DNA of 64,000 nucleotides from Jiangella muralis. Lineage in GTDB: Bacteria; Actinomycetota; Actinomycetes; Jiangellales; Jiangellaceae. This document shows positions 11,770 to 36,425 of the stretch, piece by piece (position 1 is the first letter of the stretch; every line of letters begins with the position of its first letter). The DNA is taken from assembly GCF_001270745.1 (NCBI RefSeq), contig NZ_KQ434752.1, positions 351,125-415,124 on the forward strand. The letters are read 5' to 3'. The notes under the pieces were generated by a model. It did not search any database, had not been told where the DNA came from, and saw only the letters and a list, made by a program, of their open reading frames with translations. The translations under genes and the position numbers were made by a program.

Positions 11770-11783
11770 CGTCCTTACTCCCA

Positions 11784-12623: not shown

Positions 12624-12632
12624 CGGATTCTC

Positions 12633-15689: not shown

Positions 15690-16462
15690 GAGTCCTTCTC
15701 CTCGTACGGATGGACCCGCGCCGTCATGCCTCCATCGACCGGGATCGCGGCTCCGGTGATGTACGAGGCGCGCGGCGAGAGCAGGAAGCCGACCAGGTCC
15801 GCCACCTCGGCCGGCTGGCCGACCCGGCCCATCGGCGTCTGGTCGCCCTCACGTGCCAGCGCGACGTCGCGCGGCAGCTCGGCCGGCAGGGTCGAGTAGG
15901 TCATCGGCGTCTCGATCGGCCCGGGCAGCACGGCGTTGCACCGGATGCCACGCCGGGCGTAGTCGACGGCGATGCCGCGCGACGCCATCAGGACGGCCGC
16001 CTTGGCCGCCTGGTAGGCGAAGTACCCCGGGAAGGCCGCGACCGCCTGCACCGAGCTGACGTTCACGATCGATCCGCCGCCGGCGGCCAGCAGGCGGCGC
16101 ACCGCGACGGCCATGCCGAACATCGAACCGAGCTGATTGACCCGCAGGCCGTCCTCGATGTCGCGTGCGCTCACCTCGTGGGCCGCCCCCACGACGTCGA
16201 CGCCGGCGTTGTTCACCCAGCCCCGTAGACGGCCGGCCCCGGCGGCCAGGCCGGCCGCATGTTCATGCGTCGCCCAGTCGGCGATGCTGCCGGTGACGGC
16301 GACGTAGCCACCCCCGGCTGCCCGTTCCAGCGACGCCCCAGCCGAGGCGTCGACATCCACGCCGACGACGATCCAGCCGGCGGCGAGCAGGTGTTCGCAG
16401 ACCGCCCGGCCGATTCCCGCGGCCGAGCCGGTGACGACGGCGGACGGGCGCTCAGTAGACAT
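15686..16462 (-). CDS. Short-chain dehydrogenase/reductase (SDR)
   Basis: 258 aa classical SDR: cofactor motif [17 protein letters not shown], catalytic Ser in NVSSVQA and Tyr-Lys in [10 protein letters not shown], and the C-terminal [12 protein letters not shown]. Probable NAD(P)-dependent sugar or polyol dehydrogenase providing the first oxidation step (inference from the lactonase downstream). It overlaps the upstream Gfo/Idh gene by 11 bases and the frameshifted one by four. Confidence 0.88.
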
Positions 16463-17702
16463 CCGTCACCTCCGCCGCTGCGATGTCGACGCGGGTCGGC
16501 GGCTGCGCCCAGGGCAGGCCGAGTTCCGAGAACAACGACCCGGAGGCTCCCGACTCGGCGATCGCCTCGCTGACCCCGCGCAGGACCACGCGGACGCCGT
16601 CGTGCGTACGACGGTCCCGGCCCGGCGCAACCGGCATGGTCCGCAGCCATGACGCGGGCACGCGGTGCACCGCCGTCGTCATCATCGACTCCAGGAACGC
16701 GGTGAACGCCGCCGTCCGGGCGAGCGGAACCAGCAGCGGCACCCGGCCGCTGGACCTGCGATGCTCGACGAGGTTCTCGAGCAGGCCCTGCGCCGCGCCT
16801 GCCTCCTCCACCAGGACGGCAGGCGTCGCGACGGGGTCCGTGTCGGCGGCGTGCGCGCGGATCTCGATAGGGCTGCCGACGGTGTACGTGACGTCAGCCA
16901 GGCTGCCGCGAACGGTGATCCGCGGCTGGCTGGCGGTGTCCGCGCGCAGGGTCAGCGCGATGACCGCGGTGACGTCATCGTCGAAGCCCAGCCGGATACA
17001 GGCGGTGTCGTCGGTGTCGATGTCGGCGCAACGGTAGGTCTCCGCCTCGAGCCAGCGGGGTTCCGCGCCCGGCCGTGCGGCAGCGACGATCTCCAGCACG
17101 TTCATGACGACGTGCGCGAACGGGTTGGTGGCGACCCCGTCGGCCACCACCCGCCCGCCGAGGACGCGATGACCCGCCCACGCGGCGCGGTCGTAGTACC
17201 CGCTGGTCCGCACCCATCCGCCGGTGGCCGTCACCTCCGTCAGGCGGCCGATGCCCCCCGCGGCACAGAGCCGCAGCAGCTCTCGCATCGCGGGCGAGAC
17301 CAGGGTCTGGAAGCCGACCTGGCAGGCGATTCCGGTCCGGTCCAGGATGCGGGCCAGCTCGTCGTGTTCCGCGCGCGACACCAGTGGCGGCTTCTCCAGC
17401 AGGATGTCGCTGCCGGCCCGGGCGGCGACCGCGGCGATCTCCGCGTGCGTGTGCGGCGGGGTGGCGATGACGGTGACATCCGGCCGGGTCGAGCCGAGCA
17501 TCGCCCGGTAGTCGGTCGAGAACTCGGCCTGTTCCGGAAGCTCCCGGGACGCGTCGGGGTCGAGGTCGGCGCCGGCGACGATCTCCAGGACGCCCGCCGC
17601 CTGCAGCTCCCGTGCGGTGCGGACGTGCGTCGCGCCGTAGCCGGCCAGGCCCACGAGGGCGACCCTCGGCCGCCAGGCGTTCGTCCCCGAGATGCCGCTC
17701 AT
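16452..17702 (-). CDS. Gfo/Idh/MocA-family oxidoreductase
   Basis: 416 aa. Rossmann start [18 protein letters not shown], then [18 protein letters not shown] and [18 protein letters not shown] with the EKP motif. The central part [21 protein letters not shown] is the substrate-domain region. A sugar or glycoside dehydrogenase is expected. It overlaps the enolase-superfamily gene stop by four bases. The protein is longer than most family members because of a C-terminal extension after about residue 350. Confidence 0.85.
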
Positions 17703-18847
17703 GCGACCCGGAACCTCTCGAAGGCCGCCGGATCGAGGTCGACGCCCAGGCCGATGCCGGTCGGCGTGTCGAAACTCCCGTGCGTCACGGCCGGCTCCGG
17801 GCCGGCCAGCGTCCGGGCGAGCAGCGAGTCCGGATAGTGCGAGTCGGGCCGGAACTCCACCAGCGGCACGTTGGTGTTCGTCACCGCCACCGCGATGTTC
17901 CCGGCCAGAGCGAACTTCGTCGCCAGCCAGCTCCAGGGGATCAGGCCGGCGCCGGCCCGCGCGGCATTGTCCGACAGCACCGACATCTCGCTGATGCCGG
18001 TGCGGGCCGCTCCCCCCTGCACGTGGCTGACGACCCCCGCGTCCAACAGCGGCTGGTACTCGACGGCGGCCGTGAGCATGTCACCGGTGACGATCGGCGT
18101 CTCGATCAGATCGTGCAGCCGTCGGTAGTCCTCGATCTGGTGCGGCTGGAAGGGCGCTTCGAGGGCGAACAGCCCGAAGGCGTCGATCTCACGGGCGACC
18201 GGCAGCGCGTCGTCGATCGACCGCCACCGGTAGCCGACGTCGGCCAGCAGCGTGTAGTCGTCGCCGAGGTGCGCTCGCGACCGTTCCATGAGAGCGATGA
18301 CGTCCGCCGGCTCCGGCGCGTTGTCCGGCAACGGCTCGATCTTCACCGCGGTGTGACCGAGGCCGACGGCCCGGTCGATCCCGTCCCTGAACCGCTCCCA
18401 GGTGCGCCGCGGTTCCGACGGGCCGAAGTAGAGCGTGACGTAGGACCGCGGCGTCGGGTTGACCGCCGGCCCCAGCAACTGCCAAGTCGGCACCCCCTCG
18501 ATCTTCCCCGCGAGGTCCCACAGCGCCAGATCCAGACCGGCCAGCGCCACATGCCCCAGCCCGGCCCGGCACGACCAGAAGCTCTGTGCCTTCAGCCTGG
18601 TCCACGCGGCCCGGGGGTCCGTGGCGTCGATGTCCGCGAGGACGGCACGGGGCGCGTCGTCCCAGTTGTCCGTCAGCCCGCGCACCGACTCCAGCAGCGC
18701 CTTCACGGCATCCGGGTTGGCGTTGGCCTCTCCGTACCCGACGGTCCCGTCCTCCGCGGTCACGGCGACGATCGCGCACTGCTGGGCGTTGTCGTATGGC
18801 GTGTCGTTCTCCCGAACGACGGCCACGTCGATGTCGATGATTTTCAC
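17699..18847 (-). CDS. Enolase-superfamily (mandelate racemase/muconate lactonizing) enzyme with altered active site
   Basis: 382 aa. The barrel metal ligands are recognisable in LLADVGYRW, FALEAPFQPH and PIVTGDMLTAA. The usual K-x-K base motif reads K169-I-E171, so the second lysine is replaced by Glu. The C-terminal segment where sugar-acid dehydratases have His reads GLIPWSWLATKF, without a His. It may be a dehydratase or epimerase of a sugar acid with changed chemistry. Operon position beside Gfo/Idh, SDR, lactonase and DapA-like genes supports a sugar-acid substrate. Confidence 0.8.
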   Translation of the reverse strand: MKIIDIDVAVVRENDTPYDNAQQCAIVAVTAEDGTVGYGEANANPDAVKALLESVRGLTDNWDDAPRAVLADIDATDPRAAWTRLKAQSFWSCRAGLGHVALAGLDLALWDLAGKIEGVPTWQLLGPAVNPTPRSYVTLYFGPSEPRRTWERFRDGIDRAVGLGHTAVKIEPLPDNAPEPADVIALMERSRAHLGDDYTLLADVGYRWRSIDDALPVAREIDAFGLFALEAPFQPHQIEDYRRLHDLIETPIVTGDMLTAAVEYQPLLDAGVVSHVQGGAARTGISEMSVLSDNAARAGAGLIPWSWLATKFALAGNIAVAVTNTNVPLVEFRPDSHYPDSLLARTLAGPEPAVTHGSFDTPTGIGLGVDLDPAAFERFRVA

Positions 18848-18957
18848 AGCGCTTCCTCAAGTCACGGAGTGGGTCAAGGGCATGGAACCGGCGGGCCCGC
18901 GATTCTGGGCAGGCGAATGCCGCCGAGTCAGGTGCGGCCGTCGAAGGCGGCCGTGCG

Positions 18958-21252
18958 CTAGGGCGTCTGAAGGTCGGCCGTCGGCGCCGCGAACGGAACC
19001 GGGCCCGACGGCGTCATCGCGGCGGCCGCGTCCGGCAGCCGCGAGAGGTCATGGAAGGGCGCGAACCGGACACCGGAGGGCGTCCAGTGAGCACGCCAGA
19101 GTTTGTCCCGCAGCCAGGGCACGAACTGGAGCGTGGCGGCCGCCTCCTGGTCGAGCTCGATGGGTCGCGACGCGACCGCGGCGGCGCTGTCCAGCCATGC
19201 CTCGACGTACCGAGGGTCTCCCGTCCTCATCGACGCGAGTCCCAGCAGCCGGGCGAGAGTGTCGTGATGCCATTGGTCGTCGGTGGGGAGGCTGATCGTC
19301 TGATCGTCGAAGATGTCGAAGTAGCTCCTCGTTCCGTTGTACTCGTGCTGATACGACCAGGTGACGGCTCCGCCGTGCTCCCATCTCTCGGCCATCAGCC
19401 AGTCGGCGAACCGCAGCACCGTCCGCCACATGTCGTCGTTCTCGTCCGGGAAGAGCTCCAGGTAGTCCAGCACCCCGCCCAGCGCCAGCAGCCCCATCCA
19501 CGGTTTGGTGACGTAGCTGGCGAACTGGTGGATGCCGGCGCCACCGCCCTGGTCGGTGAAGCTCCCGTCCGGCTGCTGGCAGGCCATCACCGCGGCGATG
19601 CCCTCGCGCGCCATGCCCAGGTACGTGGCCTCGCCGAAGTAGCGGTAGATCAGCACGGCGGTGCGGACGAAACTGGCGTCCCGGCCGACCGCGAGGCGCG
19701 GCCAGGAGTTCTTGTGCAGCCAGAACGCGTTGGCGGTGACGGCCATCGCCGCGTCGGCCAGGTAGGGATCGCCGGTCTCGAGGTACGCGGCCAGCGCGCC
19801 CTGGAGCCGGGTCATCGGCAACGACACCGCGTCGGGCGGGTAGCCGTGCATCCGCACGAGCTTCGATGCGTGATCGACCGCGACGTCGGCGAAGTGGTAG
19901 GCCGAGCGCATCGCGTCGTCGTAGGCGTCCGCGTCGCCGGCCCGCCAGGCGTGCAGGAACTGCGCATACGGCACCTCGCCCTCCCATCCGGGCTCGTAGC
20001 GCACCACCCCGTCCGGCTGCGTCCAGGCGAGGTCCTGCCGGCGTGGGACGGCGCCGTCCTCGAACCCCCCGCGATGGCGGTACGTCCGGATCCAGCCGGC
20101 GGCCCGGTCCACGGCCTCGTCCCAGGGACCGGTGACCGGAAGGACCGGCTCCGCGACCAGTTCCTCGCACAGGCCGTACCACCAGTCCGGCGCGAGGAAG
20201 CGGGCCACGACCGGTGAGCGATCGGACAGGCTCATCGAGAAGCGCACCGTACGGGCGAGCCCCTTCGGGAACCGCCGGGCCGCCGCGCGAAGGATGAACG
20301 GGTCGCCGAGCCGCTGCTCCGGGCACTCGCCGCCGAAGACCTCCGCTCCGGCGTACGGCTGCCAGACGGCCATACCGTCAGCGCTGGTCCAGAGCCCCGG
20401 CGCCGAGTCCGTGGCGAGCCCGGCGGCGGCGGTCAGATCGAACCGGACGTCACCGAGGCGCAGCCGGGCCGTTTCCCGGCCGGTCCACGTCGCCGGCAGC
20501 GGGCCGCCCGGCACCCAGCCCGACGCCGTCAGGCCGATGACCGGGACGATGCCCTCGAGGTCCGCGCCGTCGTCGACGAACCGGCTGTTGATGTGGTGGC
20601 AGAAGACCTCGCACACGCCGTTGGCGTGCACCCGGACGAAGAGCCGTCCGTTCAGCCAGCGGTGCGCGTGCAGGCCGGGGTTGCTGTAGCCCACGTAACG
20701 GCGCTGCTCGGCGAGCGAGGTGCGCCGTCGCGGTATGACGCCACCCATCTCGAGCGTCAGGCACCCGGCCTCGTCGATCGCCGACGACAGCAACCGGCAA
20801 GCCTGCCACCAGACGACTTCCCCGTCGTCGTCACGCAGGCCGAGGGCCAGCGCCACGGACACGTCGCCGCAGGCGATGCGCAGCGCGTGCTCCTCCCAGT
20901 AGAAGCCCGCGTCGGCACTGCGCCGAATGAGCTCCATGGTCGCCGTCGGACGAGCCGCGGGCCCGGCCGTCCCGCCGCCGCCGGTCCCGAGCCGGACCCG
21001 TCCGGGAGCCGGGGCGCTGCCGGCGTCGGCGGCGAGCAGCAGCCGGCGGGGGAACCCGCCGCCCGCCCACCTGCCCAGCTCGGTGACGTCGGTCGCGCAG
21101 CCATCCATCGTCACCGGCACTGTGGCGTGCCTGGGCCACGGGAGCGAGGTCGTCCAGATGCCCGCCTCTTCCGGTTCGGAGATCCTGGTCAGCGTCATGC
21201 CCTCGACGAGTTGCACCAGGCCCTGATGCTGGTTGTCTACTTGGGCAGCCAT
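18958..21252 (-). CDS. Large protein of unknown function, probable (alpha/alpha)6 six-hairpin glycosidase-like fold
   Basis: 764 aa, no signal peptide. I do not recognise a named family. The first half is beta-rich with Trp-containing stretches. The second half (about residues 390-720) has evenly spaced helices with small-residue and aromatic motifs such as VVRYEPGWEGEVPYAQFL, AYLETGDPYLADAAMAVT, FVRTAVLIYRYFGEATYLGM and VMACQQPDGSFTDQGGG, which resemble six-hairpin glycosidases and lyases. It sits between the ABC permeases and the sugar-acid enzymes, so a cytoplasmic glycoside hydrolase or lyase acting on the imported oligosaccharide is the best guess. Confidence 0.6.
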   Translation of the reverse strand: MAAQVDNQHQGLVQLVEGMTLTRISEPEEAGIWTTSLPWPRHATVPVTMDGCATDVTELGRWAGGGFPRRLLLAADAGSAPAPGRVRLGTGGGGTAGPAARPTATMELIRRSADAGFYWEEHALRIACGDVSVALALGLRDDDGEVVWWQACRLLSSAIDEAGCLTLEMGGVIPRRRTSLAEQRRYVGYSNPGLHAHRWLNGRLFVRVHANGVCEVFCHHINSRFVDDGADLEGIVPVIGLTASGWVPGGPLPATWTGRETARLRLGDVRFDLTAAAGLATDSAPGLWTSADGMAVWQPYAGAEVFGGECPEQRLGDPFILRAAARRFPKGLARTVRFSMSLSDRSPVVARFLAPDWWYGLCEELVAEPVLPVTGPWDEAVDRAAGWIRTYRHRGGFEDGAVPRRQDLAWTQPDGVVRYEPGWEGEVPYAQFLHAWRAGDADAYDDAMRSAYHFADVAVDHASKLVRMHGYPPDAVSLPMTRLQGALAAYLETGDPYLADAAMAVTANAFWLHKNSWPRLAVGRDASFVRTAVLIYRYFGEATYLGMAREGIAAVMACQQPDGSFTDQGGGAGIHQFASYVTKPWMGLLALGGVLDYLELFPDENDDMWRTVLRFADWLMAERWEHGGAVTWSYQHEYNGTRSYFDIFDDQTISLPTDDQWHHDTLARLLGLASMRTGDPRYVEAWLDSAAAVASRPIELDQEAAATLQFVPWLRDKLWRAHWTPSGVRFAPFHDLSRLPDAAAAMTPSGPVPFAAPTADLQTP

Positions 21253-21261
21253 CGTCGACTC

Positions 21262-22149
21262 CTACTTGCCCTCGGACAGCACGATCCCGCGCACGATCTG
21301 CCGCTGGAAGATCAGGAAGACCGCGACCATGGGAATCGTCGCGATGACCATGCCGGCCATCTGGATGTTCAACGGGACCGAACCACCCCGCAGCCGGAAG
21401 ATCGCCACCTCCAACGGCCAGAGCTGATCGTCGGGCAAGGTGAGCAGCGGCCACAGGAAGTCCTGCCAGACACCGATGAACGTGTAGATCGCGGTGACCG
21501 CGAGCACCGGACGGGACAACGGCATGACGACGCGGAACAGGGTCCGCAACGAGCCGGCCCCATCGATGGCCGCGGCCTCGAACAGCTCACCCGGCAGCTG
21601 GTCGAAGAACTGCTTGAACAGGAGGATCACGACCGGCGCGGTGATCCCCGGCAGCCAGATCGCCCACCACGTGTTGACCAGCGAGATCCCGAGGAACGGC
21701 ACATCGGTGATGTTCACGTACTGGGGAACGAAGTACGTGATGGGCGGCACCATGATGATGACCGTGATCAGGAACATGAGGACACCGGCCAGTGGCGGCC
21801 GGAGCCTCGACAGGGAGTACGCGGCCAGCAGGCAGATCGACAGCCGGAGCAGCAGGACGCCGGCGGAGATGACCACCGAGTTGCCGAAGTACAGGGCGAA
21901 GTCGAGCGAGCTCCAGGCCTGGCTGTACGACGCCAGGCTGAAGTCCGCCGGCCACCAGGACGGGGGGGACTGCACGATCTCCAGCGGAGTCTTCGCCGAC
22001 GACGCGAGCAGCCAGTAGAACGGGAAGAAGCTCAGCGCCGCCATGACCAGCAGCAGCACCAGCAGCGCGGCCAGCACGAGGCGGCCCCGTCCGGTGCGCC
22101 TCGCCGCGTCACCGATCACCCCGCGCGCGGATGTCTCGTGCGCCGTCAT
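21262..22149 (-). CDS. Carbohydrate ABC transporter permease (MalG type)
   Basis: 295 aa, six predicted membrane segments beginning LVLAALLVLLLVMAALSFF. The EAA loop reads ELFEAAAIDGAGSLRTLFR, which contacts the ATPase. ATG 22149 overlaps the stop of the partner permease (ATGA). No ATPase gene is present in the operon, so the importer probably uses a shared MsiK/UgpC-like ATPase encoded elsewhere, as is common in actinomycetes. Confidence 0.92.
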   Translation of the reverse strand: MTAHETSARGVIGDAARRTGRGRLVLAALLVLLLVMAALSFFPFYWLLASSAKTPLEIVQSPPSWWPADFSLASYSQAWSSLDFALYFGNSVVISAGVLLLRLSICLLAAYSLSRLRPPLAGVLMFLITVIIMVPPITYFVPQYVNITDVPFLGISLVNTWWAIWLPGITAPVVILLFKQFFDQLPGELFEAAAIDGAGSLRTLFRVVMPLSRPVLAVTAIYTFIGVWQDFLWPLLTLPDDQLWPLEVAIFRLRGGSVPLNIQMAGMVIATIPMVAVFLIFQRQIVRGIVLSEGK

Positions 22150-23126
22150 ATTCTCGCCATCCGATTCGTCACGGCCATGTAGCCGGCCGAGATGCAGGCC
22201 AGGACGACCAGGAACATCAAGCTCAGCGCGCTCGCGCCACCCAGGTCGCCGTACTCGAAGGCATACCGATAGACCAGCTGCACGACGCTGACTGTGGAAT
22301 CGGCGGGGCCGCCCCCGGTCAGCACGTAGGGCTGGGTGAAGATCTGCGAGGCCGAGATGATGCCGAGCAGCAGCAAGATGAGGATCTGCCCCCGGACCTG
22401 CGGCAGGGTGACGTGCCGGATCCGCCGGACGATTCCGGCGCCGTCGATCTCGGTGGCTTCGTACAGCTCCGGCGGAATCTGCTGGAGCGCGGCGAGGTAC
22501 ACCAACGCCGCGAGCCCCCAGCTCCCCCAGATGGCGATCGCCGCGACCGACGGAAGCGACTGGGACGGCGACTGGAGGAACGGCTGCGGGCCGATCCCGA
22601 ACGTCGACAGCAGTGAGTTGAGCAGCCCGGCGCCCGGGTCGAAGATCCAATCGAAGAGCAGGGCGGTCACGACCGGCGGCATCATCATCGGAAGGCAGGC
22701 GGCCAGCTGGAAGAACGACCGGCCCCACCTGAGCTCGTGGATGGCCAGCGAGATGACCAGCGGGAGGAGGTTGGCGAAGAACAGGATCAGCACCGTGTAC
22801 AGCCCGACGTTCTGCCATGCGGGCCAGAAGGCGGGGTCGGCCAGCACCCTGCGGAAGTTCTCCAGGCCGACCGCGACCGGCGGATCGAGCAGGTTGACCT
22901 TCTGGAACGCGTAGCTGAACCCCTGCACCAGCGGGTAATAGACGAACACGGCCATCGTCACCAGCATCGGCGCCAGATAGGCCAGCGCGACCAGGCGGCG
23001 CCGAGCCGAGGCCCGGCGCCTCCCCCGCCGCCCCGGCGCCGCCGGCGCAGTCGCCTCTCGCTCTCTCCCTGACAGCGTGGCAGGGCTGTCGGCGGGTGGC
23101 ATGATGACCGCAGCGTCCTCTCTCAT
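22146..23126 (-). CDS. Carbohydrate ABC transporter permease (MalF type)
   Basis: 326 aa with an Arg-rich N-terminal tail (RRGRRRASARRR), then membrane segments starting AYLAPMLVTMAVFVYYPLV. The EAA motif is ELYEATEIDGAGIVRRIRH. Forms the channel with the second permease. It starts 12 bases after the substrate-binding protein gene, whose product it should dock. Confidence 0.92.
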   Translation of the reverse strand: MREDAAVIMPPADSPATLSGREREATAPAAPGRRGRRRASARRRLVALAYLAPMLVTMAVFVYYPLVQGFSYAFQKVNLLDPPVAVGLENFRRVLADPAFWPAWQNVGLYTVLILFFANLLPLVISLAIHELRWGRSFFQLAACLPMMMPPVVTALLFDWIFDPGAGLLNSLLSTFGIGPQPFLQSPSQSLPSVAAIAIWGSWGLAALVYLAALQQIPPELYEATEIDGAGIVRRIRHVTLPQVRGQILILLLLGIISASQIFTQPYVLTGGGPADSTVSVVQLVYRYAFEYGDLGGASALSLMFLVVLACISAGYMAVTNRMARI

Positions 23127-23138
23127 CGGCCGGACGTC

Positions 23139-24581
23139 TCAGCTCACGCCGGCCAGCAGCTGAGTGGTGATCTGGTCGGCGACCTTCTCCATCTCGGCGT
23201 CGATGTCCGCGCCGGCGTTGGTGAGGATGGCCTCCGTGGCAGTTCCCAGCAGCGTGTACACCTGCTGCGACTGCACCGGAGGCTCGTCGACCAGCTCGAT
23301 GCCGTTCATGCCGTCCACGAACGGCTGATAGATCTCCGCCGGCGCCGTGGAGTGCTTCCGGACCACGGCCTCGATCTCCCTGCGCAGCGCGGAGTCCGGT
23401 CGGAGCGCCAGTGCCGAGGTGTCCAAGGGGTTGATCGTCGCTGCGTTGTCGGCCTGCGCCTTGAGCTTGACCTCGATCGCATCGGGATCCATGTTGACGA
23501 AGGAGATGTACGCGAACGCCGCCGCGACGCTGTCGGCCTCCGCTGTCGGGTTGAACAGCTCAGCGGTCGAATTGGTGTAGGTCGCGTTCCCGCCGTTCTG
23601 CGGCAAGATCCCGAACCCGATGTCCTCCACCGGCACGCCGAGCTGCGAGTTGGGGCCGACCAGCGGCACGAGATCGCCCAACCCGCCGATCATCATGCCG
23701 ATCCGGCCGATGACAAGGTCCTGGAACAGGTCGCCGTACTGGTACAGCTTGGCGGACATGGTCTGGTCCCGGTGACGCATGTCGTGCCACAGCTGAGCCG
23801 TCGCCCGCCCTTCCGGCGTCGTGAGGTCACACGTCCAGGTGCCGTCGTCCGCCTGTGTCTCCACTCGGGCGCCGGTGGTGTAGAGCCACTCGACGTGCCG
23901 CCAGCCGGCAACCAGGCCGCCTTCGATGGCGAAACCGAACACGCCGTCGCCGAGGCTCGTGATGGCCGCGGCCGCCTCCCGGAACGCGTCCCAGGTCGTG
24001 GGCGGCGCGTCCGGGTCGAGGCCCGCCTCGCGGAAGAGCCGCCGGTTGTAGAGCAGACCGTGGGTGTTCGTGAAGTCCACGAACGCGAAGTTCCGGCCGT
24101 CGACGCTGGTCGACTCGATGCCCGACGGGTTCAGCTCCTCGGCATGCGGCCACTCCTTCAGGACCGACGTGATGTCGGCCGTCTGTCGCTGGCCGATCGG
24201 GATGTACGCGCTGGCCAGCGGCACGGCAAAGTGCGTCTCTAGCTGTCCGCCGGCCAGCTTGGCAGGCAGCAGCTTGAGCGTCTCGGTGCCGCCGGGCGAG
24301 GTGGACAGCTCGATGTCGATGTCGGGGAACCGCGACCGGAACAGCTCGAGCGCCGCCGCCTGGGCGGCCAGGTCGCCGGGCTGCGTCGAGCTCGTCCCGC
24401 TCCACGACGTCGCCGAGGCCCTGCCGGTCCCACCCGACGGCGCCGAGCCCGGCGAATCCAATCCACGGCTGCAGGACGCGAGATACGTCGCGAGGCCGCC
24501 ACCCACCGCGACCCCGGCGACACCACGCAAGATCGATCGCCGGCTGAACGACCGGGCAGCGAGAGAACCAGGCTGTGTCAC
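23139..24581 (-). CDS. Extracellular sugar-binding lipoprotein of ABC importer
   Basis: 480 aa, family 1 solute-binding protein. The N-terminus has a twin-arginine motif (RSFSRRSILRG) and a lipobox ending LASC, so it is a Tat-exported lipoprotein. Family features follow, such as FVDFTNTHGLLYNRRLFREA and DAPPTTWDAFREAA. GTG 24581 was chosen because GGGAAGG lies six bases before it; the frame stays open to 24680. First gene of the 12-gene operon. A TTGACA-type promoter carrying an operator-like spacer lies about 130 bases upstream. Confidence 0.9.
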   Translation of the reverse strand: MTQPGSLAARSFSRRSILRGVAGVAVGGGLATYLASCSRGLDSPGSAPSGGTGRASATSWSGTSSTQPGDLAAQAAALELFRSRFPDIDIELSTSPGGTETLKLLPAKLAGGQLETHFAVPLASAYIPIGQRQTADITSVLKEWPHAEELNPSGIESTSVDGRNFAFVDFTNTHGLLYNRRLFREAGLDPDAPPTTWDAFREAAAAITSLGDGVFGFAIEGGLVAGWRHVEWLYTTGARVETQADDGTWTCDLTTPEGRATAQLWHDMRHRDQTMSAKLYQYGDLFQDLVIGRIGMMIGGLGDLVPLVGPNSQLGVPVEDIGFGILPQNGGNATYTNSTAELFNPTAEADSVAAAFAYISFVNMDPDAIEVKLKAQADNAATINPLDTSALALRPDSALRREIEAVVRKHSTAPAEIYQPFVDGMNGIELVDEPPVQSQQVYTLLGTATEAILTNAGADIDAEMEKVADQITTQLLAGVS

Positions 24582-24703
24582 GTTGACCTTCCCTTCGAGA
24601 GTCGCGAAACCGGCGACCACGGGGCATGAAAGAGGACACATCACTTGAGTGCGCCGCCCCCGGCAACGCACCGGGTTCACCGTGCGGCCGAGCGGGTTCG
24701 CCT

Positions 24704-24732
24704 ATTAGCTCATCCGTATAAGCAGTTGTCAA
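24704..24732 (-). promoter_or_regulatory. Promoter and operator of the ABC/sugar-acid operon
   Basis: On the minus strand TTGACA (24732-24727) is followed after 17 bases by GCTAAT (24709-24704). The spacer holds TGCTTATACGGATGA. An almost identical promoter stands at 32598-32626 before the second beta-helix operon. The arrangement, a spacer operator next to a divergent LacI gene, suggests repression by that protein. Confidence 0.6.
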
Positions 24733-24863
24733 GCATTCATCCGCCGCGACTCTGTGTCACCCGATGCTGAGCCAACCCGAGACCGCAGCCCAGACGGCTG
24801 ATGAGCTGGACTCTCCTGCCGGCACTACCGCCGGGCGTGCCCGGTTCGGCTAGAGTGATCCGC

Positions 24864-25925
24864 ATGAGCAGCACCGGCCAGGAGGCAGCAACATCCGGCA
24901 GCTACAAGCGGCCCCGTCAGCGCGACATCGCCCGGATGGCCGGCGTGTCGCAGCCTGCGGTGTCGCTCATCCTCACGGGCAGAGGCCAGGACCGCATTCC
25001 GGACGAGACGCGGCAACGGGTCCTGGAGATCGCCGCCGCGGTCGGGTACCGGGCGAACACCGCCGCCCGCCGCCTGCAGGGACAAAGCAGCGGGCTCCTC
25101 GGCGTGCACAGCTACGGGGACATCTTTCCCATCGGCTTCCAGCACTACAGCTACGAGTACCTGGTCGGCATCCACTCGGCGGCCGAGCAGTCCGGATTCG
25201 ACCTCGTCCTCTTCACCTCGACCAGGCGCGGCCCGGTGCCGAGCCCTTACCTGGGCAACGACGAGAACCGGCTGGGCGTCGCCGACGGGTCGATCATCGT
25301 CGGCGGCCACTCCAGCGAGAACGATCTCGCTCGTCTCGTGGGCGAGGGCTATCCGTTCGTGCACATCGGGCGGCGGCAGATGGAAGGGATCGACATCCCC
25401 TCGGTCGGGTCCGACTACGTCGACGGGACAGCCCGCCTGATCGTCGAGCTCGCGGAGACGGGCCACCGCAAGCTCCTCTATCTCGGCGCCGACAGCGTGG
25501 ACGAAGGCCGCCGCGACCGGCGCGAGGGCTTCCGCATCGGCGTCGAGAAGGCCGGCCTGACCTCGACCGACATGTGTTTCGTCGGACGCGAGGAGGTGAC
25601 CGCCGACTGGCTGACGAGCACCATCCCCACCAGCGGCTGGACCATCGTCGCCGAGGAACACGACCTCGCGCACCGCGCCGTCACCTCCGCGACCACGGTC
25701 GGACGACGGCTGCGCACCGACCTCGCCGTCGCCGTGCTGGCATCGCCGCTCGCCGGTGAGTTCGACAGCTGGTATTGCGGCTTCCTCGTCGAGCAACGCG
25801 AGGAGATCGGCTGGCGGGCCGGCAAGTTGCTCATCGACATCGTCGAAGGACGGCAGTCCGGTCCCCGCCAGCTGCTGCTCAAGTGCCGGCCCAGCGTCAC
25901 CAGCTACGGCTACGTCCCCCTCTGA
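24864..25925 (+). CDS. LacI-family transcriptional regulator
   Basis: 353 aa. HTH RDIARMAGVSQPAVSLILTG, then IPDETRQRVLEIAAAVGYRA. The sensor domain follows (GLLGVHSYGDIFPIG, SVGSDYVDGTARLIVELAET, GHRKLLYLGAD). Divergent from the ABC operon and 30 bases before the SDR, so it probably controls both directions. ATG 24864 has no Shine-Dalgarno sequence, but TAGAGT at 24851-24856 fits a -10 box seven bases before it, so the mRNA may be leaderless. An in-frame upstream ATG at 24801 is less likely. Confidence 0.9.
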   Translation: MSSTGQEAATSGSYKRPRQRDIARMAGVSQPAVSLILTGRGQDRIPDETRQRVLEIAAAVGYRANTAARRLQGQSSGLLGVHSYGDIFPIGFQHYSYEYLVGIHSAAEQSGFDLVLFTSTRRGPVPSPYLGNDENRLGVADGSIIVGGHSSENDLARLVGEGYPFVHIGRRQMEGIDIPSVGSDYVDGTARLIVELAETGHRKLLYLGADSVDEGRRDRREGFRIGVEKAGLTSTDMCFVGREEVTADWLTSTIPTSGWTIVAEEHDLAHRAVTSATTVGRRLRTDLAVAVLASPLAGEFDSWYCGFLVEQREEIGWRAGKLLIDIVEGRQSGPRQLLLKCRPSVTSYGYVPL

Positions 25926-25955
25926 CCGCTCGCCCGAACACATCAGGAGCAACCC

Positions 25956-26756
25956 ATGAGGTTCCTGGACAGGATCGCCATCGTCACCGGCGGAGCCTCC
26001 GGGATCGGCGCCGCCATCGCGCGGCGGATGGCCGGCGAAGGCGCCGTCGTGGTCATCGCCGACCTCGACGAAGAGCGCACGACGGCGTTGGCATCGTCGC
26101 TGCCCCGTGCGGTGCCGGCAGTCCTGGACGTGACCGACCGCAGCGCCGTCGAGGCGACCGTGGCGCGCCTGGACGACGCGGTCGGGCCGGTCGAGATCCT
26201 GGTGAACAACGCCGGGGCCGCCACCGACGGGACCTTCGACGAGTTGTCGTCGGAGAGCTGGGACCGCGATGTGGCCGTCAATCTCACCGCCCCGGCCGTC
26301 CTGACCAGGACGGTGCTGCCGCGCATGGTCGCGGCCGGGCGCGGCGCCATCGTCAACGTCTCCTCGGTCAACGCACTCGCGGCACTCGGCAACGACGCCT
26401 ACAGCGCGGCCAAGGCCGGCATGCTCAGCCTGACCCGTTCCATCGCCGTCCAGTACGGGCAGCACGGCATCCGATGCAACGCGGTGGTGCCCGGCACGGT
26501 CCAGACGCCGATCTGGCAGTCGCGCCTGGAGCGCGATCCGCAGGTCTTCGAGCGCGCCGCGCCCTGGTATCCGCTGGGCCGGGTCGGAACGCCCGACGAC
26601 ATCGCGGCCGCCGTGCTGTTCCTCGCCTCCGATGACGCCGGCTGGATCACCGGCACCTCGTTGCTCGTCGACGGCGGTCTGATGGCGGGCAACGCCCGGA
26701 TGATGCGGGAGATCACCGCCGAGTCCCACCACGCCCCGTCTGGCGCGTCGCGATGA
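25956..26756 (+). CDS. Short-chain dehydrogenase/reductase (SDR)
   Basis: 266 aa classical SDR: AIVTGGASGIGAAIARR, NNAGAAT, catalytic NVSSVNAL and DAYSAAKAGM, and the C-terminal WITGTSLLVDGGL. FabG-like, so an oxidation or reduction of a hydroxy or keto group is expected. It follows the LacI gene by 30 bases with CAGGAG before the ATG, and its end overlaps the next start (ATGA). Confidence 0.88.
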   Translation: MRFLDRIAIVTGGASGIGAAIARRMAGEGAVVVIADLDEERTTALASSLPRAVPAVLDVTDRSAVEATVARLDDAVGPVEILVNNAGAATDGTFDELSSESWDRDVAVNLTAPAVLTRTVLPRMVAAGRGAIVNVSSVNALAALGNDAYSAAKAGMLSLTRSIAVQYGQHGIRCNAVVPGTVQTPIWQSRLERDPQVFERAAPWYPLGRVGTPDDIAAAVLFLASDDAGWITGTSLLVDGGLMAGNARMMREITAESHHAPSGASR

Positions 26757-28054
26757 GCACACCTGCACCGCCGCCCGCGAGTCGGCGCGTCCCATCCCGG
26801 GACTGGTTGCCGGCCGACGATGTCCCGATCACCGTCAAGGACAAGTGCTTCGGTACGGCACAGCGTGGTCGAAGCGTCTCCGCACTGGTCCGGGCCGGCA
26901 CAGCGCTCTCCGAGCTGCCGACGCCCGTTGCGACCCTGGACGCAGGCGCACTCGAGCACAACCTCGGCGTCATGAGCAGCTACGTCCGGCAACACCGAGT
27001 CGGCTTGGCCCCACACGGCAAGACCACGATGTCTCCCGACCTCTGGCGCCGGCAGATCGACGCCGGAGCCTGGGGCATCACCGTCGCCACCGGCTGGCAG
27101 CTCCGGGTCGCTCTCGACGCCCGCGTGCGCAAGATCATGCAGGTGGGACCGATCCTCGACGACGGCGTGCTCGCCGAGGTGGCGGCAGCGCTGACGACGG
27201 ACCCAGAGGTCGACGTCGTCGCGTGGGCCGATCACGTGGATGCCGTTGCCTTGATGGCCGCCCGCTTCCCTTCATCGGGTCGACCGCTTCCGGTCCTGGT
27301 CGAGCGCGGGGTTCCGGCCGGGCGAACCGGCGCGCGCACGCTCGACGAGGCGATTGCCGTGGCCGAGGCCGTCGCCGCGAGCGACAACCTGACCCTTGGG
27401 GGCATCGCGTTCTGGGAAGGCTCCATGCACGCCGGCACGGAGCCTCAGCGCCGCCACCTGGTGGAGACGTTGTGCTCGGACGTCGTCGACACCTTCGACG
27501 AGTTGGAGCGACGCGAGCTGCTGTCCGATCCCATCGTGACAGCGGGCGGCAGCGCCTACTTCGACCTGGTGCTGGACGGTCTCACCCCGATCTCGGATCG
27601 CGCGCGCATCCTGTTGCGGTCCGGCTGCTACCTCACCCACGACGACGGTGTCTACGCCGAGATCTCTCCGCTCAAGAACGGCCCGCAGTCGTTCCGCCCG
27701 GCGCTGCACGTCTGGGCGCGAGTCATCTCACGACCGCAGGACGATCTCGTACTGATCGATGCGGGACGCCGCGACGTTCCGTTCGACGCCGGTCTGCCCA
27801 GGCCCATCCGGCTGCTGGGAAGCTCGAGAGAGCAATCGCTCGACGCACTGGCCGGCGCCGCACTCATCGAGGTCAACGACCAGCACGGCTACCTGCGGGT
27901 TCCCCCGGCCTCGTCGCTCCGCATCGGCGACACCATCGGATTCGGCATCTCGCACCCCTGCACGGCGTTCGACAAGTGGCCGGCCCTGCCCGTGGTCGCC
28001 GACTCCCAAGCCCTCGACCCCATGCTCGTGGGACTCGCCCGAACCATGTTCTGA
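26753..28054 (+). CDS. PLP-dependent amino-acid deaminase/aldolase (D-threonine aldolase/alanine racemase-N family)
   Basis: 433 aa fold-type III PLP enzyme. The block LPTPVATLDAGALEHNL leads to the PLP lysine in GLAPHGKTTMSP. The C-terminal part (SGCYLTHDDGVYAEI, and the metal-site-like segment GFGISHPCTAFDKW) resembles D-threonine aldolases and D-serine dehydratases, which bind a metal through His and Cys. Probably acts on a D-amino acid or hydroxy-amino acid. Together with the adjacent amidohydrolase it may process an N-acylated amino acid (inference). Confidence 0.78.
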   Translation: MSTPAPPPASRRVPSRDWLPADDVPITVKDKCFGTAQRGRSVSALVRAGTALSELPTPVATLDAGALEHNLGVMSSYVRQHRVGLAPHGKTTMSPDLWRRQIDAGAWGITVATGWQLRVALDARVRKIMQVGPILDDGVLAEVAAALTTDPEVDVVAWADHVDAVALMAARFPSSGRPLPVLVERGVPAGRTGARTLDEAIAVAEAVAASDNLTLGGIAFWEGSMHAGTEPQRRHLVETLCSDVVDTFDELERRELLSDPIVTAGGSAYFDLVLDGLTPISDRARILLRSGCYLTHDDGVYAEISPLKNGPQSFRPALHVWARVISRPQDDLVLIDAGRRDVPFDAGLPRPIRLLGSSREQSLDALAGAALIEVNDQHGYLRVPPASSLRIGDTIGFGISHPCTAFDKWPALPVVADSQALDPMLVGLARTMF

Positions 28055-28096
28055 ACGTCCCCGAGACTTGGACCCGACTTCTCTGCGAGGACAACC

Positions 28097-29347
28097 GTGT
28101 ACGACCTCATCATCCGCGACGGCGTCGTCGTCGACCCCGTCCAGCGGGCTCTCCGCCGCAGCGACGTCGCCGTATCCGGCGGGCTCATCTGTGCCATCGG
28201 TGATCTCGCCGGCCACGAGGCACGAGCCACCCGGTCAGCTCAAGGGCTCTACGTCACGCCAGGGCTGATCGACCTGCACACTCACATCTATCGAGGCGGC
28301 TCGTTCTGGGGGATCGACCCGACGAGGATCGCCTGGCGTTCCGGCGTCACGACCTGGGTCGACGCCGGAAGTGCCGGGGCGCACACCATCGACAACCTCG
28401 CGGCTCAGACAGCGGGCCACGATCTCACGATCCATGCGTTGCTTCACATCGCCGCCCAGGGCCTCGTCGGAAGGACCGGCGAATCCGCGGACCTGGCCAA
28501 CCTCGACGTCGACGCGTTCGCCGAGGCCGTCAGCAGGCACCCGTCTCTCGTTCGCGGCGTCAAGGTACGGATCGACCCGTCAACCGTCGGCACGAACCAT
28601 CTTCTCCCCCTGGACCGGGCACTGACCGCAGGACGGGCCACTGGGCTGCCGGTCATGGTGCACATCGGGGCCGGGTCGATACCGGTCGCGGAGACACTCG
28701 ACAAGCTCCGTCCCGGAGACATTGTGACGCACTGCGCCGGCCCCGCAGTCCAGGGCTTCGGTTCCGATCCCGTGCTCACGACGGCCATCCGCCGCGCCTA
28801 CGAGAACGGCGTCGTGTTCGACATCGGCCACGGCGCCGGCGGTTTCCTGTTCTCGGCGGCCGAGGGGTACCTCTCCCAAGGGCTCGTCCCCCAGGTCATC
28901 TCGAGTGACCTGCACCAGCTCTCGATCCACGGGCCGGTCTTCGACCTCCCGACGGTGATGAGCAAGCTACTGGCGATCGGGATGGACCTCGTCGACGTCG
29001 TGACCGCCGCCACCGTCGCGCCCGCACGAGCGTTGGGAATCCCGGGAGGAACGATCGAGGTGGGCAAGCCGGCCGACCTCGCGCTGTTCCGGGTCGAGAC
29101 CACGCCAGAACCGCTCGGCGACGTGTACGGAGAGGTCCGGCCGTCGACGCAACGGCTCTACAACGAGTCCACCTACCGCGCCGGCCGGCTCCTCCCGCCG
29201 TGCTGGCCCGATCCCCCGCCCGCGACGCTCCCGCTGTCCAGCGAGCAAGAGCGGGCACTCGGCGAGCTGGACGCCGCCGCACGGGCCCTGCTGACCAGAA
29301 GCCTGGTGCACCCGTCCCACGTCAGGAACCAGATTCCACGCCCGTGA
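28097..29347 (+). CDS. Amidohydrolase/deacetylase-family metallohydrolase
   Basis: 416 aa. The metal-binding H-x-H is in GLIDLHTHIYRGGSFWG, a probable carboxylated lysine in GVKVRIDPS, further ligands in MVHIGAG and HCAGP, and the catalytic Asp in VISSDLHQLS. These match the EF0837-like amidohydrolase/deacetylase group, related to dihydroorotases and N-acyl-D-amino-acid deacylases. GTG 28097 follows GCGAGGAC. Last gene of the LacI-SDR-deaminase set, with a strong terminator after it. Confidence 0.82.
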   Translation: MYDLIIRDGVVVDPVQRALRRSDVAVSGGLICAIGDLAGHEARATRSAQGLYVTPGLIDLHTHIYRGGSFWGIDPTRIAWRSGVTTWVDAGSAGAHTIDNLAAQTAGHDLTIHALLHIAAQGLVGRTGESADLANLDVDAFAEAVSRHPSLVRGVKVRIDPSTVGTNHLLPLDRALTAGRATGLPVMVHIGAGSIPVAETLDKLRPGDIVTHCAGPAVQGFGSDPVLTTAIRRAYENGVVFDIGHGAGGFLFSAAEGYLSQGLVPQVISSDLHQLSIHGPVFDLPTVMSKLLAIGMDLVDVVTAATVAPARALGIPGGTIEVGKPADLALFRVETTPEPLGDVYGEVRPSTQRLYNESTYRAGRLLPPCWPDPPPATLPLSSEQERALGELDAAARALLTRSLVHPSHVRNQIPRP

Positions 29348-29366
29348 CCCATGCCCGGACGCGGCT

Positions 29367-29406
29367 CGGGGGCCGGTCGCCGCGCTGACGCGGCGGCCGG
29401 CCCCCG
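29367..29406. terminator. Bidirectional terminator between convergent genes
   Basis: An 18-bp stem with one G-T wobble (arms 29367-29384 and 29389-29406, rich in CGGGGGCCGG) and a CTGA loop. It lies 20 bases after the amidohydrolase stop and 45 bases before the convergent beta-helix gene ends. No U-run, as often in actinomycetes. Confidence 0.75.
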
Positions 29407-29450
29407 ACGTGTCGAGCGCTGCCGCGCATGGTCACGGCAGCGTCGGCTCG

Positions 29451-31109
29451 CTACTGACGGATCGCGATGCTCACCTCGGCGTCCTCGCCGATGGTGTACG
29501 CAGGGCTCTCCTTGAGGCGGAACACGGCTGTTCGCGTGCCGGCGTCGTCCGAGCGCCGGGTCCGGATCGGGAGGTCGACCGACCTCGACCCGGCCGGGAT
29601 GATCACGTGCCCCGACAGGCCGTCGTAGTCGTCTCGGTTCCGTGCCGTGCCGGACATCTCGAACGCGACCGCGAGGGTCATGGACAGGTCGTCCGTCACG
29701 CGGCTGAACCGGACCCGGTGGGTGCTGCCGCCCCGGCCGGAGTTGGACCGGGACCGCGTCGACACGCTGACCTCTGTCGCCGGATGTGTCGTGAGGGCGC
29801 GGACGTCGAGGTCCAGGTCATGCGGGTTGACGCCGAGGTCCTGCGTCGCGCCATAGGCATTGACCACCGTCAGGTCGCCGTTGAGGTCGGCCAGGCCCTG
29901 GCTTCCCGGTAGTTCGACCACTCCGAGGAAGGGCCGGTTGAGGTTGGTGATGAGGACGCTGTCGCGCCAGCTGACGCCGCCGTACTCCGGCGCCGGGTCG
30001 GCGCCCGCCGCGTCAGGCGTGTTCCGGAAGTAGAACGGGTAGGTGAAGTAGGGCGAAGTCGTGTCCCAGCTCCACCAGACGGTCTGGTCGAACTCGATGC
30101 TGGTGCCGTCGGCCGGGTGATTCCAGATGCCGATGGTCCCGGACGCCGGGCCGGTGGTGAAGAGGCAGTCGTCGAAGATGAGCTCGCCGCCGGGGTCGTT
30201 CGTGCCGGCGACGTTGACAGCCAGGATCGCGTTGTCGCCGGCGGTCGGTCCGAGGAAGCAGTTCTCCAGGCGCACGTCCACCGGGATCGAGTCGGAGGTC
30301 AACGTGACGGGTACGAACACGAAGTTGTTCTGGTCACAGCCGGCGAACACGCAGTCCCTGAACACGATCCCGGTCAGCTGCTGGTTCCAGTAGTTCGGTT
30401 CCAGGTCGACGCCGCCCTCTGGCGACGTGCCGTTGCTGTTGAGGAATGCGGAGCCCTCGACGAGCAACCCGTCGACGGAGATCACGCTCATGGCGTTGCG
30501 CCGATGGTTGTCGCATACGACGTTTCGAACCGTCACATCCTCGCAGCGGTTCCGCGCACCGGGAAGGGGCGATACGCCAACGTAGATGCCGTCACCGCCG
30601 CTGTCCTTGAGCAGCAGGCCCTCGATGAGGAAATCCCGAACACTCAGTAGGTTCACCGTCATGCGCCACTCGCCCGTGGTGTACTCCGGCTTGTTCATGA
30701 CGAACGTCGCGCCATAGCCGATGAGTTTGACGCCCTTCCGGTTTTCGACCGTCACCAGCGCATCGTCGACGTTCGGGAACGCGCCGGGCTTCGCCCGGAG
30801 CACGACACCTCGTTCGAACCGCACCTCGATGTTGTTGGCGCGGACGAACAGCGGGCCGGTCGTCCAGTCGCCGGACACCTTGTCGACGATGACGACCTTC
30901 GCGCCGGAGTCCAGTGCCGCCTGCAGGAAGGCGGTCGAGTCCGCCGGGTCGTAACCGAAGTCCGATACCCGGACGGTGCGCGGCCGTGGCCGGTCATCGG
31001 CGACTGCCACATTAGCCGCGCCCGCCGCGAGGAACGGCGCGGTCGCGGCCGCCGTCCCGTAGCGCAGCAGGGTGCGCCGAGGTACCCCTGCCCTCGTCTC
31101 GTCTGCCAT
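29451..31109 (-). CDS. Tat-exported right-handed beta-helix protein (paralogue)
   Basis: 552 aa. The Tat signal VPRRTLLRYGTAAATAPFLA precedes a parallel beta-helix domain and a C-terminal Calx-beta-like domain, the same plan as the protein at 12633-14294. Long blocks are shared, for example NKPEYTTGEWRM, GGDGIYVGVS, RNVVCDNHRRNAMSVISVDG and DDYDGLSGHVIIPAGS. ATG 31109 follows GAAAGGGG. Probably a secreted polysaccharide-active or polysaccharide-binding protein. It is separated from its paralogue by 15 kb but seems to share its regulator. Confidence 0.8.
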   Translation of the reverse strand: MADETRAGVPRRTLLRYGTAAATAPFLAAGAANVAVADDRPRPRTVRVSDFGYDPADSTAFLQAALDSGAKVVIVDKVSGDWTTGPLFVRANNIEVRFERGVVLRAKPGAFPNVDDALVTVENRKGVKLIGYGATFVMNKPEYTTGEWRMTVNLLSVRDFLIEGLLLKDSGGDGIYVGVSPLPGARNRCEDVTVRNVVCDNHRRNAMSVISVDGLLVEGSAFLNSNGTSPEGGVDLEPNYWNQQLTGIVFRDCVFAGCDQNNFVFVPVTLTSDSIPVDVRLENCFLGPTAGDNAILAVNVAGTNDPGGELIFDDCLFTTGPASGTIGIWNHPADGTSIEFDQTVWWSWDTTSPYFTYPFYFRNTPDAAGADPAPEYGGVSWRDSVLITNLNRPFLGVVELPGSQGLADLNGDLTVVNAYGATQDLGVNPHDLDLDVRALTTHPATEVSVSTRSRSNSGRGGSTHRVRFSRVTDDLSMTLAVAFEMSGTARNRDDYDGLSGHVIIPAGSRSVDLPIRTRRSDDAGTRTAVFRLKESPAYTIGEDAEVSIAIRQ

Positions 31110-31215
31110 GGTCGTGCCCCTTTCGTTCGCAGGTGAAGGTGAGCGATCGTTGAAGCCGTCAGAAAGCGCGTTTCGGTCCGGCCCGCGCCGGCTCACGGCA
31201 TCGGTGAGCCGCCGG

Positions 31216-32184
31216 TCAGACCGTCGCCGGGCCGGGCCGTCGTGGGTCCCGTTCGTCGTCGAACAGGCTGAGGACCAGGCGGATCTCTCGTCTCTCCCCA
31301 GCCCGCAGCTGGATTCCGCGGCCTCGCGGCCGGTTCGAGATGCGGCCTGAGCCCGGAATCGTCGTGCCCGGCTCGATGGCGATGACATCGGCGCGGCGGT
31401 ACCAGGGAAAGCCGCTCGTGGCGTGTAGCTCCTGCCAGATCCACGCATGCGGGAAGGTCTCCGCGTCCCAGCGGACTTCGACACCGAGCCCGACCTGGCC
31501 GTTGAACAGGCTGAACCAGCCCTCGTCGAAGTCCGTGAGACAACCGTTCACCTCACGTGCCGGATCGGCGGACTCGATCGTGTCGATCGGCACCTCCGGA
31601 GGCCACGCGAGGATCCGGTCCGCCGGCAGGACGGTGCCGGGTAGTCGCTCGTCGGAGATGAGCGTCCTGGCCCCGCTCCGGATCACGCACCCGGGTCCGA
31701 CGAGTGGCGGTCCGAATGCAGGGTGATGCACCCACATCACCTCGAGCTCGACCGTGGAGAGGTTCGTCAAGGTCTCGGTCAGGTGCAGCCGGCGGCCCTC
31801 GACCGCCACCTCGCGGGCCAGCAGCAGCGGCGCCGTGAAGAGTTCGACGTCCAGCCGCACACGGGACTCGCTGCGCTCACGAACCCGCCAGGGCACCAGG
31901 GCAGCCTCACCGTGAAAGCCCCAGGTGGTGTCATGGGCCTGCCGCTCCGACCCGGCGTTGGGACACAGCACCTGCCAACCGCCTCGGTAACCCGCCAGCC
32001 ATCTGGCTTCGGAGTCGACTGCCGCCACGCCTGCTCCCGGAGCGTTCCAAGGTGCGCGGAACATCACGTCCACCTCGGTCGCGACGTCCACCACCGAGAC
32101 GATGTCCGCCCCTCGTTCCGGGTCGATGGTCACCGCGATCTGTGTGCTCGAGAGCACGATCGGCTCCCGGTCCGAGTTGGCCAT
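31216..32184 (-). CDS. Aldose 1-epimerase-like protein (galactose mutarotase fold / DUF4432-like)
   Basis: 322 aa beta-sandwich protein. VVDVATEVDVMFRAPWNAPG, HDTTWGFHGEAALVPW and LEVMWVHHPAFGPPLVGPG resemble aldose-epimerase superfamily members, with a candidate catalytic His in the MWVHHPAFG block. AGGAG precedes the ATG. It probably interconverts sugar anomers or assists a sugar hydrolase. About 106 bases upstream of the beta-helix gene, so likely co-transcribed. Confidence 0.75.
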   Translation of the reverse strand: MANSDREPIVLSSTQIAVTIDPERGADIVSVVDVATEVDVMFRAPWNAPGAGVAAVDSEARWLAGYRGGWQVLCPNAGSERQAHDTTWGFHGEAALVPWRVRERSESRVRLDVELFTAPLLLAREVAVEGRRLHLTETLTNLSTVELEVMWVHHPAFGPPLVGPGCVIRSGARTLISDERLPGTVLPADRILAWPPEVPIDTIESADPAREVNGCLTDFDEGWFSLFNGQVGLGVEVRWDAETFPHAWIWQELHATSGFPWYRRADVIAIEPGTTIPGSGRISNRPRGRGIQLRAGERREIRLVLSLFDDERDPRRPGPATV

Positions 32185-32597
32185 CGCTGCTCCTCACACG
32201 CCTCATCTCGCCACTTAGGACGATGTCTGTGCCAGGGATGAGCTGCAGCCGGGCCGCTGACCATCACGTCGGCCCTGCTACGTCCACAGCTAGCGCCCGC
32301 GTCGTGTCGGCGCCGCACTCTCGCTCGCGGGCTGCTCGACCAGGCGCCGCCTTCCATGGACGCCGCGGCCGCGTCGTCGGCAGCCGCACTATCAGGACCC
32401 TTGCGACGGCGAATCCGACGGGTGGTCGGCCAGCCGAACGCTCGAACCCCTTCCTGAACAGATCCAGCCCGACAACGGACACAACCAGGAAACCCACATG
32501 GATCACCGACACTGAGTTCGTCAGCTCGGCGACTCCGGACTGAGCGTTCGACCGCAAGACCCACCAAGCGAGCCAGACCACGGTGGACCGTCAGGCC

Positions 32598-32626
32598 ATC
32601 AGATCATCCGTATAAGCATTTGTCAA
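32598..32626 (-). promoter_or_regulatory. Promoter/operator of the epimerase and beta-helix genes
   Basis: TTGACA (32626-32621), a 17-base spacer containing TGCTTATACGGATGA, and TCTGAT as -10 (32603-32598). The spacer operator is identical to that of the ABC operon at 24704-24732. The next start codon is about 410 bases downstream, implying a long leader or an unrecognised small gene. Confidence 0.6.
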
Positions 32627-32839
32627 CGCCCACCTTGAGGGGCCGCCGCTGCGAGCCGATCTGGACGTTGTCACGGATCGGCTCAATCGCCGCACCCTGT
32701 TCGCCGCAGGCGACCAGGAATGCGGACTGAGCTGGTCATATACCCACCGCGTCCTGCCTCGCCCCAGTGGGCGCCGCCCGCTCACGGGGTCGCACTGGCC
32801 GCTCCAGACACCGCCGCAGCGGGAGCTTGGCGGCCGTGC

Positions 32840-32860
32840 TGATTCGAATAAGCAGTACTC
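32840..32860. promoter_or_regulatory. Third copy of the operator motif
   Basis: TGATTCGAATAAGCA matches 12 of 15 bases of TCATCCGTATAAGCA, and its centre TTCGAA is palindromic, which fits a LacI-type operator. No TTGACA box accompanies it, so it may be an auxiliary site. Confidence 0.4.
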
Positions 32861-33787: not shown

Positions 33788-33819
33788 GGCGACTACCTCC
33801 ACCTTTGACGATATCGCAA

Positions 33820-33848
33820 CATTCATCCTACGATCCCATTCATCCTAC
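33820..33848. promoter_or_regulatory. Direct repeats CATTCATCCTAC in the GntR/RraA divergent promoter
   Basis: Two exact 12-base copies (33820-33831 and 33837-33848), 17 bases apart, in the gap between the GntR start and the RraA start. FadR-type regulators bind such short sites, so this is the probable operator. The RraA ATG is 26 bases further on. Confidence 0.55.
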
Positions 33849-36413: not shown

Positions 36414-36425
36414 GCGCTCGTCTCC

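Follow-up and report, generated by a model that had tools for sequence, protein, structure and literature searches.

Two operons in a 64-kb stretch of the draft genome of the actinomycete Jiangella muralis (the window) are preceded by closely similar promoter-like elements, each with a predicted operator set between its -35 and -10 hexamers, and a gene for a LacI-family regulator lies in the same cluster. Here we report that these features probably form a local LacI-family regulon for importing and oxidizing a glycan-derived sugar or sugar acid, as judged from the sequence. An earlier note on this DNA had described the two operons as distant; their promoter elements, which we call P1 and P2, are in fact 7.9 kb apart and belong to a single cluster, in which the LacI operon separates them.

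The pattern TTGACAA-n-TGCTTATACGGATGA-n-CT-n-AT-n-G defines two elements on the minus strand, P1 at 24732-24702 and P2 at 32626-32596, that are identical at 27/31 positions. P1 reads TTGACA AC TGCTTATACGGATGA GCTAAT (24732 to 24704) and P2 reads TTGACA AA TGCTTATACGGATGA TCTGAT (32626 to 32598). The -35 boxes are at 24727..24732 and 32621..32626, and 17 bases separate each of them from a weak candidate -10 hexamer (24704..24709 for P1, 32598..32603 for P2). Outside the elements, identity is at background level, with 41/150 positions upstream, 7-9/30 in each downstream block and 9/19 in a last short block. TTGACA occurs five times on the two strands of the window, and P1 and P2 account for two of these occurrences. 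The sequence TTGACAANTGCTTATACGGATGANCTNATNG has two matches in the window and none in 100 shuffles; the 15-base core has five matches with up to three mismatches (0.26 expected), and its exact form is found at P1 and P2 alone across the whole draft genome (7,266,157 bases in 76 contigs). These observations agree with the claim that TTGACA and a 17-base spacer with a shared motif stand before both operons. Calling the two an “almost identical promoter” is apt for the -35 box, the spacer length and the overall identity, but not for the -10 hexamers: measured against sigma-70-type promoters (TTGACA, 16-18 nt, TATAAT-like -10), both elements have a perfect -35 box and suitable spacing and a -10 hexamer off consensus.

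The shared core can be extended to an 18-bp palindrome centred on CG, the form taken by most LacI-family operators (1251/1303 motifs are even palindromes, 1173 of these with central CG, in the collection of Ravcheev et al. 2014, PMC4052901). Three such predicted operators are present, all on the minus strand. Site 1, TGCTTATACGGATGAGCT (24707..24724), is self-complementary at 12/18 positions, retains the central CG and lies inside the P1 spacer, and site 2, TGCTTATACGGATGATCT (32601..32618), is self-complementary at 10/18 and lies inside the P2 spacer. Both are imperfect palindromes. Site 3, TGCTTATTCGAATCAGCA (32837..32854), is the most symmetric, palindromic at 16/18 positions, with its centre 236 bp upstream of that of site 2. 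It is the third motif copy without a -35 box that the earlier note had listed, and read from 32854 to 32837 it has ACGAGT in place of TTGACA. The copy is real, but it is no remnant, being the best-scoring operator of the window in the scan described below.

The sites are tied to the LacI protein by a motif learned from its relatives alone. DNA around the LacI starts of 33 relatives with locus identifiers was reduced to 28 by removing near-duplicates, with the window excluded, and an expectation-maximization search for a palindromic 18-mer was run from up to 250 random starts, of which the eight best all reached the same consensus, tgCTAATACGTATTAGca. On the window, the resulting matrix gives its highest score to site 3 (20.6 bits), followed by site 1 (18.8 bits) and site 2 (15.8 bits). 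The next place, a weak possible site 4 covering the start codon of LacI (24853..24870, minus strand), reaches 5.7 bits. Across 200 dinucleotide-shuffled versions of the window, the highest score was 9.3 on average and 16.63 at most; the scores of sites 3 and 1 were reached in 0/200 shuffles each, that of site 2 in 2/200 and that of site 4 in 194/200, so that site 4 is not significant by score. A site of at least 14 bits lies near the LacI start in 28/33 relatives, comprising 24 of the 28 trained on and four of the five near-duplicates set aside. L064, a relative from another family, carries TGCTTATACGTATCAGCG, with an identical left half-site. Because a matrix built without the window puts these sites at ranks 1-3, the proposal that the LacI protein is their likely common repressor is well supported, with binding itself a prediction.

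The exact motif is also rare in the genome. Exact TGCTTATNCGNATNA matches number three genome-wide, all at this cluster, and the longer TGCTNATNCGNATNAGCA is found exactly at site 3 alone, with one mismatch at site 1 and one other place (C16, 123051), and with two mismatches at site 2. The C16 place scores below 10 bits by the matrix. The sequence TTGACANNTGCTTATNCGNATNA, which joins the -35 box to the operator, was found in five stretches of a wider contig collection, recorded as Muribaculaceae, Rhodospirillales, Raineya, Selenomonadaceae and Alphaproteobacteria; we take these as chance matches, about seven being expected on a rough estimate with equal base use. A plasmid collection held no match to positions 24500-25100 of the window.

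The regulator itself (353 aa; 24864..25925, protein 24864-25922, plus strand) matches PF00356, PF00532 and PF13377 above cut-off, the first at 38.6 bits (cut-off 27), and has the helix-turn-helix and periplasmic-binding-like sensor of the LacI family. Its relatives, which are 30-41% identical, come from its own genus and family and from three further families of the class. A second LacI-family protein could be the real regulator or an additional one, and the paralogue L066 (C4:407239-408243) is the example at hand: it belongs to the same subgroup, is 39% identical to the LacI protein of the window, and lies about 6 kb from TGCGCATACGTATGAGCG and CGCTCCTACGTATGACCG, candidate tandem sites of similar type 43 bp apart. 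L066 is, however, encoded elsewhere, whereas the window's LacI gene sits between both promoters and is divergent from P1, and nearly 90% of the LacI regulators covered by Ravcheev et al. are local (PMC4052901). We therefore regard regulation by such a protein as very improbable. The C4 site pair (L093 16167-16227, G000 C4) probably belongs to L066, which has no such site at its own start.

The regulator gene nearest to site 3 and P2 is a GntR/FCD gene at 33032-33826, on the same strand, and it could be supposed to control P2 and perhaps P1. The common boxes of the FadR subfamily are TKGT/ACMA, from which some members differ (PMC4494728), and the sites contain no match to TKGTNNNACMA or TNGTNNACNA; exceptional motifs were not searched. 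This comparison is a weak one, as the gap upstream of the GntR gene itself likewise has no common boxes and unusual motifs occur in the subfamily. The gap between GntR and the divergent RraA gene carries, by eye, another direct repeat, CATTCATCCTAC (33820-33848), in two copies 17 bp from start to start, which is a candidate GntR operator. Even palindromes with central CG are moreover of LacI type, and the LacI-derived matrix recovers the sites. Control by the GntR/FCD protein is thus a suggestion to which we give hardly any credence.

For P1, the placement of the operator supports control by LacI: site 1 is centred 134.5 bp ahead of the start chosen for the first operon 1 gene, inside the range of 140-30 bp before the start codon that holds more than 75% of the LacI sites surveyed by Ravcheev et al. 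(PMC4052901). For P2 the case is less simple. LacI might control P1 and its own gene alone, the P2 match being functionless and operon 2 starting nearer to its first gene. This would suit a P2 about 410 nt from that gene, across a gap with no coding signal, and a site 2 that scores lowest of the three operators. The -35 box, the spacing and the operator are nevertheless all retained at P2, the same gap holds site 3, the highest-scoring operator, and we consider a functionless P2 unlikely. Two further ideas about the gap were rejected. Nothing in the window matched Rfam at gathering score, as an RNA element in the long P2 leader might have done. Nor is there a third-position GC signal for a hidden gene ahead of DUF4432, and the 105-aa open reading frame at 32264-32581 has no Pfam hit with an E of 1 or below.

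Several further observations weigh against a LacI regulon embracing both operons. The placement of P2 is unusual, since site 2 lies 425 bp upstream of the first operon 2 gene and only about 7% of LacI sites lie beyond 200 bp (PMC4052901). Both -10 hexamers are poor, neither having an A at position 2, and a promoter scan of the window listed neither of them. Genome-wide, the 18-mer with up to two mismatches occurs 14 times per strand against 13 per strand for a reversed control. Two-mismatch matches elsewhere therefore mean little, being no commoner than the control, and site 2 is itself a two-mismatch match. When the matrix was scanned on 166,742 bases of other stretches, chosen partly for pattern matches, C4:414166-414183, one of the tandem pair near L066, scored 16.2 bits, above site 2, and four further places scored 13.4-14.4 bits; cross-talk between L066 and the sites described here is possible. 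Five of the 33 relatives (L035, L059, L061, L066, L075) have no site of at least 14 bits near the LacI start, and operators of the relatives are found mostly next to the start codon of LacI rather than within a promoter spacer. Finally, apart from the LacI protein itself, the best match was 41% identical both in a search of 198 relatives and in one of 393 genomes of the class. Close orthologues were also sought in the wider contig collection, where 89 stretches matched the pattern and none was confirmed. A search for literature on Jiangella with LacI showed nothing useful among the papers listed.

Operon 1, on the minus strand, begins with the solute-binding protein of a sugar ATP-binding cassette (ABC) transporter (23139..24581; PF01547), whose GTG start at 24581, after GAAGGGAAGG, was picked by eye. 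Its remaining genes extend over 9716..23126. They comprise two ABC permeases, a 764-aa protein without a family, an MR/MLE dehydratase, a Gfo/Idh/MocA protein, a short-chain dehydrogenase/reductase (SDR), a second Gfo/Idh protein, a beta-helix protein (BH1), an SMP-30/gluconolactonase-like protein, an NAD epimerase and a member of the DHDPS family. Strand and spacing point to a single transcript, and the families suggest that a sugar or uronate is broken down oxidatively. A 1018-aa open reading frame at 12633-15689 (minus strand) is not a single gene, consisting of a Gfo/Idh front, an out-of-frame stretch and BH1 at the rear (about 12633-14294, minus strand). The Gfo/Idh frame change, near 14.9 kb, marks a broken gene or an assembly error. 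The 764-aa protein (18958-21252, minus strand) has no Pfam or NCBIfam family, hits solved structures only at E 0.52 and, at E 1e-30, matches nothing in the 392 other class genomes; its structure model is useless (mean predicted local distance difference test score, pLDDT, 34.5).

Operon 2, also on the minus strand, starts with a DUF4432 gene (31216..32184; PF14486) and includes BH2 (29451..31109), a protein with a twin-arginine-like signal, seen by eye, and a right-handed beta-helix. BH1 and BH2 are paralogues, 52% identical over 512 aa, and the presence of an exported beta-helix protein of this type in each operon ties the two together. The BH2 model is of middling quality (mean pLDDT 57.7, predicted template modelling score 0.63), and the matches from a fold search with it (tailspikes, polysaccharide lyases, glycoside hydrolases), all low in TM-score, point to no single substrate. 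Both proteins are probably exported glycan-cleaving enzymes. Relatives of BH2 occur in six other genomes among the 393 searched, and a third paralogue is present in this genome. In four of five such regions compared (C33 of this genome, G000, and G010, G004 and G007) a LacI gene, 30-31% identical to that of the window, is close to the beta-helix relative and is preceded by another kind of repeat; the fifth region (G020) showed no LacI match. The placing of a beta-helix gene beside a LacI gene thus recurs in this genus. Three tandem TGATTAAGCGCT-like repeats precede the LacI gene near the beta-helix paralogue in four genomes (L109 14557-14600 in G000 C33, L110, L111 and L113). At L112 (G020 C4) a site of the same type as those in the window, 14.9 bits at 15245-15262, precedes by about 0.8 kb a Gfo/Idh gene that is 57% identical to the front of the Gfo/Idh gene in operon 1, in a region that also has a beta-helix relative.

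Behind the LacI gene, on the plus strand, follow an SDR (25956-26756), a D-serine dehydratase-like pyridoxal phosphate enzyme (26753-28054) and an amidohydrolase (28097-29347), assigned by Pfam; from their spacing, these genes may well be co-transcribed with LacI. Elsewhere in the window, three M20-type peptidase genes (34887-36413, 36426-37745 and 38602-39798, minus strand) are accompanied by a GNAT-like gene that lies among them (34887-39798).

In light of these observations, we propose that a LacI dimer would bind the 18-bp operator TGCTnATnCGnATnAGCA and that, with the operator between the -35 and -10 hexamers of P1 and P2, the bound repressor would exclude RNA polymerase. A sugar or oligosaccharide of the pathway would bind the repressor, and both operons would open together, operon 1 supplying an ABC importer and an oxidative route for a sugar or sugar acid, and operon 2 an aldose-epimerase-like protein (DUF4432). 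Site 1, between LacI and operon 1, would probably also govern the divergent LacI operon. Site 3 probably assists site 2, by looping or by raised local concentration. Looping is only a guess, since no C-terminal tetramer helix is evident by eye in the LacI protein.

In the weak half-site, the letters that break the palindrome are the same at sites 1 and 2, while the flanks of the two are unrelated, and this favours the view that a promoter-operator cassette of about 30 bp was copied to the second operon. We offer tentatively, and with considerable doubt, the fuller picture of such a cassette copied as a unit, a duplicated exported beta-helix enzyme under the same LacI, a possibly undescribed substrate and a glycan-use cluster that includes the 764-aa protein. 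The control proposed here is ordinary LacI-type sugar control and leaves general knowledge of LacI regulation unchanged. What the analysis provides is a putative regulator, operator and small regulon for an unstudied sugar-acid cluster, together with an operator type for a LacI subgroup found in this genus and its family and in a few more families, which should aid the annotation of other clusters.

The arrangement resembles the local LacI sugar regulons described by Ravcheev et al. (PMC4052901) in its even palindrome with central CG, its divergent regulator adjoining a sugar operon, its apparently few sites near the regulator and the presence of more than one site per control region; it differs in that no relative exceeds 41% identity in the genomes searched and in the unusual distance of the operon 2 promoter from its gene. 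Closer to home, the same-genus clusters with beta-helix, ABC transporter, Gfo/Idh and LacI genes (G000 C33, G010 and G004, with a G007 stretch that has no Gfo/Idh match) have the same kinds of gene, including a beta-helix gene beside LacI, and differ in their 30-31% identical LacI and in the three copies of a TGATTAAGCGCT-like repeat upstream.

AcrC/MalR of actinomycetes (PMC5526262) is likewise a LacI-type repressor of sugar-related genes with more than one operator, and a loop between two of its sites, 182 bp apart, has been proposed. Its box is made up of CTTGC(A/T)G repeats, in contrast to TGCTnATnCG here, and the AcrC sites lie upstream of a -35 box or downstream of a start, none of them in the spacer. 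A counterpart for the spacer position is found in the Pspacer library of lac-type promoters (PMC7804116), where an operator placed between the -35 and -10 boxes is in direct competition with RNA polymerase. Strong repression is cited for this position, yet the library promoters were leakier than those of the standard layout, with 2.16-fold higher uninduced expression on average. Those promoters were engineered in E. coli, whereas the element described here is natural and present twice.

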